Shown: positions 62,110 to 64,000 of the stretch, one piece after another
How positions within the stretch are numbered: the stretch's first letter is position 1
Layout: each line of letters starts with the position of its first letter
NCBI GenBank assembly: GCA_913056195.1
Contig: CAJXMF010000003.1
Span: 35,406 to 99,405, forward strand
Direction of reading: 5' to 3'
From: an uncultured Methylococcaceae bacterium
GTDB taxonomy: Bacteria > Pseudomonadota > Gammaproteobacteria > Methylococcales > Methylomonadaceae
DNA length: 64,000 nt
Notes under the pieces: generated by a model
The model's input: the letters and a program-made list of their open reading frames with translations, nothing else
Databases searched by the model: none
What the model was told of the DNA's origin: nothing
Made by a program: the position numbers and the translations under genes

Positions 62110-62319
62110 TTAATTTAGAAATATCCCCAAAGTTTTACTCAATTTATTCAGAAACGGATGGAGGCTATCTTTATCAAAAGGATCATGATGGTACTTATGA
62201 CAAAAATCCCAATAAAAGCGAAACCATTTTTTATAATAGGAATGAATATTTTTGGGGATTGCACGGTGATGCAATGATATGTCAAAGTGATCAGCGATTT
62301 TTTTAGGGAGTGCTTGCAT
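62110..62319 (-). pseudogene. Truncated tyrosine recombinase, N-terminal SAM-like domain only (integron-integrase-like)
   Basis: MQALPKKIADHFDISLHHRAIPKNIHSYYKKWFRFYWDFCHKYHHDPFDKDSLHPFLNKLSKTLGIFLN*; catalytic domain absent. Confidence 0.7.
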
Positions 62320-62452
62320 TGGCTGTTATATAGTTAACGGTATATCCTCTTATTAGGATAGATATACAGTTTAGAAATTCAACTTTTTGACAGCATTTTT
62401 GCCAATTTTGAGAAATAAGCGTATAAGATGAACAGAAACTATTTAATAACTT

Positions 62453-62459
62453 GTTAGGT
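62453..62459 (+). other. Putative integron recombination core site (attI-side GTTAGGT, GTTRRRY)
   Basis: GTTAGGT between the divergent integrase remnant and the cassette ORF; mirrors the attC R'' box ACCTAAC at 63943. Confidence 0.65.
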
Positions 62460-62477
62460 GATGAGGAAGAAACAGAA

Positions 62478-63938
62478 ATGTACGCGGGCGTAGACTTTGG
62501 GACATCAAATTGTTCTATCGGAGTATGGGAGAAAAAAGGCCCGATCCTTCTTCCGCTTGAAGGGGAAAGTACCAGATTACCGTCAGCTCTGTACACGTCT
62601 CGCCCAAATGTTCGCATCGAAGAAATAGACGAGATCGAGTTAAAGAAGCGTGTTACAGACGCAAAGAGGCGACAAACCACTGAGTCGAAGAAGGCCAAGA
62701 AGGAAAATAGAAAGGTTAAGGAATTCTCTGATGCTGAACTCGAAAATATTGAACGAGGAATCATGCGCAGAGAGATCGCGGAGCGCGCGAAAGCTAGATA
62801 TGAAGGTCAATCCATAAGTGAAGCTTTATACGCTGATACTGAGGTTGTTTTTGGGGAGGCAGCAATCCTCCGTCACATCCAAGATCCGCAAAGCGGATAC
62901 TTCATTAAGTCACCTAAATCCTTTCTCGGTGCAGATATTAAGCATCAGCATATTGAGTTATTCTCGGAAGTAATCACGAGAATGCTGGCTTTCATCAAAG
63001 ATAATGCAGAAAAGAATACTCAAATAGAAATACAGAATATTGTTCTTGGGCGCCCAGTAAACTTTCACGGCACAAGAGGTGAAGAAGGGAATGTGCAAGC
63101 GCTTAGCATTCTTGAGAGAGCAGCAATAGCGGCGGGATTCAAAAATGTTGAGTTCCTTATGGAACCAATCGCCGCTGCTCTTGATTACGAGCGGAGCATA
63201 TCTGAAGACCTTGTCGTACTTGTCTTAGATGCTGGTGGCGGCACAACTGATTGCTCAATGGTTAAACTAGGACCATCTTATATCCAGTCGAGAGAGAGGA
63301 ATGGTTCTGTACTCGGCTATGCTGGTGATCGTATTGGAGGCACAGATCTCGATATAAAATTGGCCCTAAGAAAAATTATGCCTTATTTTGGAAAGGACTC
63401 TTTGTTGAGTAACGGACTGCCTGTACCAAACACGCTATTCTGGAGTGCTATAGCAATAAATGATGTTAATGCGCAGCAGCAGTTTTTGTCTGATAGCACT
63501 CAGCGCGAAATTGCCTCGTACTTGGCTCAAGCAATAGATAAGCGGAAAGTACAGCGTCTACAAAGTCTTCAGAAAGGCCGGCTGATGGTTCGTCTTAACC
63601 GTAGCGCCGAACTCGCGAAAATCCATTTGTCAGACCGTGATCCCATAAACCTTCCGCTCCGATACATTGAGCGCGAATTCGTTATTCCAATCTCTCGGCG
63701 TGACTTGCGAGAATCGATAGAGCGTGAGCTTGATGTTTTTCTCTCGTTGATGAATGAGGTAGAAAAGCAGGCAGGCGCGAAGCCTAACATTGTATACGTA
63801 ACGGGTGGCACAGCAAAATCGCCTATAGTAGAAGAGTGGATACGATCCAGTTATAGAAATATAGAAATAGTGGTGGGGGATGCATTCGGAAGTGTTGCTT
63901 CAGGTCTTACGACATGGGCCCATCGAATATACGAATAA
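62478..63938 (+). CDS. YegD-type Hsp70 family protein in an integron cassette
   Basis: MYAGVDFGTSNCSIGVW, FIKSPKSFLGADIKHQHIELF, LGRPVNFHG, EPIAAALDYERS, VLDAGGGTTDCSM, RIGGTDLDIKLAL, VTGGTAKSPIVEEW; RBS GAGGAAG. Confidence 0.92.
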   Translation: MYAGVDFGTSNCSIGVWEKKGPILLPLEGESTRLPSALYTSRPNVRIEEIDEIELKKRVTDAKRRQTTESKKAKKENRKVKEFSDAELENIERGIMRREIAERAKARYEGQSISEALYADTEVVFGEAAILRHIQDPQSGYFIKSPKSFLGADIKHQHIELFSEVITRMLAFIKDNAEKNTQIEIQNIVLGRPVNFHGTRGEEGNVQALSILERAAIAAGFKNVEFLMEPIAAALDYERSISEDLVVLVLDAGGGTTDCSMVKLGPSYIQSRERNGSVLGYAGDRIGGTDLDIKLALRKIMPYFGKDSLLSNGLPVPNTLFWSAIAINDVNAQQQFLSDSTQREIASYLAQAIDKRKVQRLQSLQKGRLMVRLNRSAELAKIHLSDRDPINLPLRYIEREFVIPISRRDLRESIERELDVFLSLMNEVEKQAGAKPNIVYVTGGTAKSPIVEEWIRSSYRNIEIVVGDAFGSVASGLTTWAHRIYE

Positions 63939-63942
63939 AATC

Positions 63943-64000
63943 ACCTAACGAATTAGGTTATGTCGTGATCGCGAAGCGAGCCACGACATGAACCGTTTGT
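63943..64000 (+). other. Integron attC recombination site (3' end truncated by window)
   Basis: R'' ACCTAAC; imperfect palindrome GGTTATGTCGTG...CACGACATgAACC with one extrahelical G; final GT fits the start of an R' GTTRRRY box. Confidence 0.85.

Follow-up and report, generated by a model that had tools for sequence, protein, structure and literature searches.

A decayed chromosomal integron at the end of a Methylococcaceae contig, probably interrupted by an IS91-type element with an attC-like end

Remains of an integron and its first cassette

The window analysed here, a stretch of 64,000 nt, corresponds to bases 35406-99405 of contig C3 in a 2.5-Mb, 76-contig draft genome (G000), and window base 64000 is the final base of that contig (99405). 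The draft is 94.5% complete, and this sets the scope of every whole-genome absence reported below. Its genes point towards a methanotroph-like gammaproteobacterium. Relatives are represented by G001, a complete genome from the same genus, and by further genomes that include G003, G012, G037 and G063. The last part of the window (62110-64000) holds the left edge of a chromosomal integron in decay, with an N-terminal remnant of a long-form integrase gene (intI), an attI-type core site and one Hsp70-like cassette.

The intI remnant occupies 62110..62319 on the minus strand, where a 69-aa ORF (62319-62110, with homology over 62134-62319) resembles residues 1-62 of long-form (475-500 aa) TIGR02249 integrases at 43-51% identity. 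The best match was 48% identical to residues 1-62 of 478-aa integrases (E 2.8e-16), identity to the G063 protein reached 51%, and the matched integrase loci of relatives (G063, G041, G080 twice, G046 and G007) pass the TIGR02249 cut-off; the score of the ORF against PF13495, the phage-integrase SAM-like domain, was weak. The match breaks off at 62134, and a search back to 59000 revealed no credible remains of the rest of intI, which indicates that most of the gene has been lost: where an integron would have an intact intI, about 62 N-terminal residues are left. Nothing in G000 scored over the TIGR02249 cut-off, the top matches being an Xer-like protein on C12 and a fragment on C6. Matches over the cut-off were present in 93 of 151 related genomes and thus the loss appears to be local to G000, within the limits of this draft. 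An earlier sequence-only reading of the window had described a divergent minus-strand fragment of a tyrosine recombinase, had proposed a chromosomal integron whose own integrase was destroyed and had suggested searching the same genome for full-length IntI. The fragment is now identified as the start of intI, and the remnant together with the empty genome search agrees with the proposed destruction. Isolated N-terminal integrase fragments, with no catalytic part at the match, were also observed in G005 (L082), G063 (L077), G027 (L084) and elsewhere in G000 (C2:38003, L104), and may reflect repeated decay of the long-form integrase.

The interval between the intI remnant and the first cassette (62320..62452) is a candidate attI region by position alone, and a promoter scan of this interval found no promoter-like site. 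The core site G^TTAGGT follows on the plus strand (62453..62459), 134 bp from the start of the intI remnant; it conforms to GTTRRRY, with the cassette boundary after the G. The sole plus-strand ORF (62478..63938) encodes a 486-aa protein of the Hsp70 superfamily, of the YegD/PRK11678 type (PF00012; NF008673 'molecular chaperone', 479 bits against a cut-off of 331), for which PADLOC gave no match. The cassette opens with the 10 nt GTTAGGTGAT, to which 63940-63949, ATCACCTAAC, is exactly complementary, and within this stretch the core pairs with the R'' box ACCTAAC (63943..63949, plus strand). Since such complementarity is the signature of cassette ends that meet in a circle, the Hsp70-type ORF is a genuine first cassette, and the core site and single cassette ORF of the sequence-only reading are both retained.

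This complementarity supplies the one or more gene cassettes that an integron must contain, and there are more on C49 and C29. Complementarity between cassette start and R'' extends over 9 nt for a DUF4268 cassette and 7 nt for an FkbM-type cassette on C49, and over 9 nt for a HigBA-like pair on C29; two ordinary attC-like sites, judged by eye, are visible on these contigs. Gene cassettes are thus real in G000, which is now apparently without an integrase to serve them. The DUF4268 cassette (C49, L007, 17651-18617) is located downstream of fabI with no integrase, and its protein matches the candidate defence family PDC-S11 (426 bits). The HigBA-like toxin-antitoxin cassette (C29, L006, 782-1459; HigA 106 bits) is followed by a truncated end of the mobile element described below.

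The hairpin at the end of the contig

Where a complete attC would follow the first cassette, the R'' box alone precedes a folded structure that runs to the contig end. The region 63940-64000 folds better than 200 of 200 shuffles (z -5.1), and the 58-nt hairpin beginning with ACCTAAC had been read as the attC of the cassette. The good fold and the ACCTAAC, as an R'' box, survive from that reading, but the hairpin from about 63949 onwards appears to be the end of a mobile element. The terminal 52-58 bases recur in G000 at C29:1453 and at the ends of C49 and C66, with 52 nt identical on C49 and 31 nt on C66, where the copy is cut short. On C29 the copy continues further, with element sequence that can be aligned to the end of a complete G003 copy. 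The end of C35, a contig that is not linked to C3, carries the opposite element end and the start of a recombinase gene and also aligns with the G003 copy. Six dispersed 2427-bp copies in G001, near-identical in that they differ at one position, have the hairpin at their end.

On these comparisons the hairpin is very probably the attC-like end of a mobile element of 2.1-2.5 kb and not the attC of the Hsp70 cassette. Judged from the junctions of other copies, the element appears to be inserted in reverse in the R'' box of this attC, which on the minus strand reads as its target core G^TTAGGT, and the contig to break inside the repeat. The attC-like end would thus occupy 63949..64000 on the minus strand, so that C3 holds 52 nt of element before it stops. 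That the structure is instead an ordinary attC of the Hsp70 cassette, with the contig breaking in an array of near-identical attC sites, is very improbable. Such arrays are known in Vibrio, and the fold and the complementarity of R'' to the cassette start are as an ordinary attC would have them; yet the genuine attC sites of G000 differ from the hairpin, its C29 copy leads into element sequence, and in C66 and G001 this end occurs away from any array. The bulge and the order of R' and R'' also fit the opposite strand, as the unpaired base in the 5' arm, a feature of the aadA1 attC, is found solely on the minus-strand reading. An Rfam search of the region returned nothing at gathering score and no attC family. 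A homogeneous VCR-like array was ruled out because the 3' continuation is element sequence, and cassettes at attG sites were dropped as a cause of dispersal because the dispersed copies are full IS91-type elements.

The interior of the element is unassembled in G000, as expected for a repeat, and we therefore infer from other copies that the one at 64000 carries the same recombinase and transposase genes. Beyond the contig end there should be approximately 2.4 kb of element followed by the remainder of the Hsp70 cassette attC. With its attC interrupted in this way, the usual excision of the cassette would be prevented.

Other occurrences of this end have varied surroundings. On C66 (L008, 7730-7884) it follows a pilin/O-antigen-ligase-like gene pair outside cassette arrays and lies beside an 18-nt inverted repeat. 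Half of the same end (CCTAACGAATTAGGTTAG) is joined to unrelated sequence at the end of C41 (L165, ~2886-2906) and may represent another related or broken element. In G037 (C304, L107, from 1556) the same attC-like end is followed, after TTTGT, by sequence resembling the 5' end of a group II intron (GTGTGCCCGGCATGGG...). C3 ends at TTTGT, the position of the intron-like sequence in G037, and contig ends differ among the copies.

The element family and its insertion sites

Copies in relatives hold two genes, one for a tyrosine recombinase (PF13495, PF00589) and one for an IS91-family transposase (PF14319, PF04986). On the coding strand the layout is G^TTGRACGAAGC (with minor variants), the two genes, RTYCAAC, a bulged hairpin and YG^TT. 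The R'' of the element is complementary to its own start, the 5' arm has an unpaired base and the boundary is G^TT, all of which are marks of gene cassettes; across 22 elements, 6 of the 11 stem pairs show compensatory changes that preserve the hairpin. In its sequence organization, then, the element is laid out like a gene cassette that carries its own recombinase and transposase.

Scanning a single genome per species gave at least 570 relatives. The 80 loci kept from these were mostly from Gammaproteobacteria and Desulfobacterota; the few assigned to other phyla come from draft assemblies in which misbinning is possible. For 47 copies, 2142-2484 bp long, the two ends could be placed; these are separate sites and not 47 species, as several come from one genome. 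Among plasmids, a protein search turned up the recombinase together with the transposase in Salinivibrio, Photobacterium, Thiodictyon and on an E. coli IncC plasmid; no copy of this last element was present in the E. coli genome collection. On a plasmid of Shewanella sp. ANA-3 (L177, 4001-4248) there is a 248-bp piece of the attC end that shares 95% identity with the copy on the E. coli plasmid; no transposase is annotated next to it, and it is possibly a truncated or non-autonomous form. The element also occurs outside integrons, on C66 in G000 and at several sites in G001.

The transposase scores 344-376 bits against NF033538, over the cut-off, and in relatives' copies has both the Zn-binding and the Y2 HUH domains by which the IS91 family is recognized. 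The recombinase reaches 154 bits against TIGR02249, below the cut-off of 265, and scores 170 bits against XerA and 159 bits against XerD. It is Xer-like and, by the curated cut-off, not an IntI, and family membership therefore does not imply use of a folded attC. In copies from methanotrophs and in several from Desulfobacterota (L135, L143, L162, L167, L168 and L230-L244, two lineages) the recombinase ORF is split at a run of A8 (A7 in one copy) just before the catalytic HxLRH motif. Most other copies have a single frame and a few are split without an A run. The A8 split likely reflects programmed -1 frameshifting or (transcriptional) slippage, with decay, leaving the recombinase inactive in methanotrophs, as a possible alternative.

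Insertions sit at GTT[A/G][G/T] cores, including the R'' boxes of attC sites, where they are oriented opposite to the cassettes. Among 41 target sites, position +3 was A in 37 and G in 4, and position +4 was G in 26 and T in 15; the TT of the target is not independent evidence, as the search for ends demanded TT after the terminal G. Left flanks were mostly NTTG^ (CTTG in 11, ATTG in 9, TTTG in 4) and the element itself ends in TTYG^.

One attC target is in the class 1 integron of the E. coli IncC plasmid RCS41_p. Here aadA1 and qacEdelta1 flank the element, which is oriented against the cassettes and is inserted exactly at GAATTG^TTAGAC, in the R'' box of the aadA1 attC. Once rejoined, the 107-nt aadA1 site has matches in 3294 plasmid records; in 2070 of these the match covers 80% or more of the site, and the best are 100% identical from end to end. 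A G003 copy also interrupts an attC, for which an intact homologue exists in G012. In G001, a copy lies inside a membrane-protein gene, a target that is clearly not an attC; there the rejoined site aligns, with no gap at the junction, to an intact G003 homologue and the reading frame is restored. These empty sites indicate that insertion is precise, with no net gain or loss. Automatic detection in a too lenient form called attC at 18 of the 41 targets and 192 of 606 controls, a second version did so at 7 of 41 and 49 of 606 (p = 0.054), and strict R'/R'' complementarity at targets was not above null. For this reason, attC targets are claimed only for the sites that were checked individually.

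Possible mechanism and relation to known systems

We tentatively propose, at somewhat less than even odds, that the element is an autonomous gene cassette, in which a Xer-like recombinase integrates the folded attC end at GTTRRRY cores (R'' boxes, attI-like sites and dispersed sites) and a coupled HUH transposase makes the single-stranded circle. A circular, perhaps single-stranded, form of the element would arise, with the IS91 transposase making or copying the circle; this would then be recognized through its folded attC end and recombined into a GTTRRRY core. Of the three candidate enzymes (the recombinase, the Y2 transposase and a host IntI), the element's own tyrosine recombinase seems to us the likeliest agent of integration, at about even chances. 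It is favoured because the target is two-sided, because R'' complements the element start and because the recombinase is conserved, whereas the A8 split in methanotrophs and the likeness of NTTG^ to TTYG^, as an HUH mechanism predicts, count against it.

This likeness would suit a model in which the Y2 (HUH) transposase alone moves the element, cutting the target after NTTG and the end after TTYG, with the hairpin as a recognition structure and the recombinase reserved for another step, such as resolving copies. The conserved transposase and the frame-split recombinase gene of some lineages also speak for it. We consider it rather unlikely as a whole, since the target of an HUH enzyme is expected to be one-sided and the bases across the cut are strongly preferred as well (TTA[G/T]), and since the complementarity of R'' to the element start is that of cassettes. 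Movement in trans by a host integron integrase, as for an ordinary attC cassette, is less probable again. The cassette layout, the GTT core targets, the frequency of over-cut-off integrases among the related genomes and the position of the E. coli copy within a class 1 integron would all suit it; G000, however, has several copies and no intact integrase was found in it, the dispersed near-identical copies in G001 suggest self-driven spread, and insertion is reversed and in R'', as against R' for usual cassettes. Considering the explanation as a whole, namely an integron edge, an inserted IS91-type element with a tyrosine recombinase and the mechanism proposed for it, we put its probability at about 0.6.

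IS91-family elements that also carry a tyrosine recombinase seem to have been catalogued earlier, and gene cassettes are thought to depend on the integron integrase for their movement. The element shares with integron cassettes, including integrase-less attC clusters, the complementarity of start and R'', the bulged hairpin and the G^TT boundary, but differs in encoding its own recombinase and HUH transposase, in being multicopy and dispersed, and in entering R'' in reverse. With IS91/ISCR rolling-circle elements it shares the Zn_Tnp_IS91 and Y2_Tnp transposase, to which it adds a tyrosine recombinase, an attC-like end and a two-sided target of the GTTRRRY type. The closest described case is the IS91-like ISShvi3, which adjoins an attC in an integron of Shewanella sp. 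Choline-02u and was presented in 2022 as 'a new gene cassette structure' (PMC9229058). As described there, it is a single case with no IS interrupting the attC, whereas in the present family the attC forms one end of the element itself, and targets and empty sites are known. Two other groups of mobile elements also target attC and are oriented opposite to the cassettes, according to the citations in PMC9229058 and PMC3589745: IS1111-attC elements and group IIC (class C-attC group II) introns. Their enzymes differ (a DEDD transposase, and a ribozyme with reverse transcriptase, respectively), and they are not known to have an attC of their own as an end. Our literature search, with subscription journals and ISfinder outside its scope, found no paper describing attC as part of IS91-type elements or as their target.

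A cassette-like element with its own recombinase and HUH transposase that inserts precisely in attC sites, one of them in an IncC resistance integron, would link integrons with rolling-circle transposons and offer a concrete system for asking where attC sites originated. Among the attC sites now taken for lone cassettes or integrase-less arrays, some would then be the ends of transposons, and insertions of this kind could lock cassettes in place. If the proposed mechanism is true, the element would be a self-mobile relative of gene cassettes with integrons as its homing targets, and attC sites may have been seeded or copied by it.
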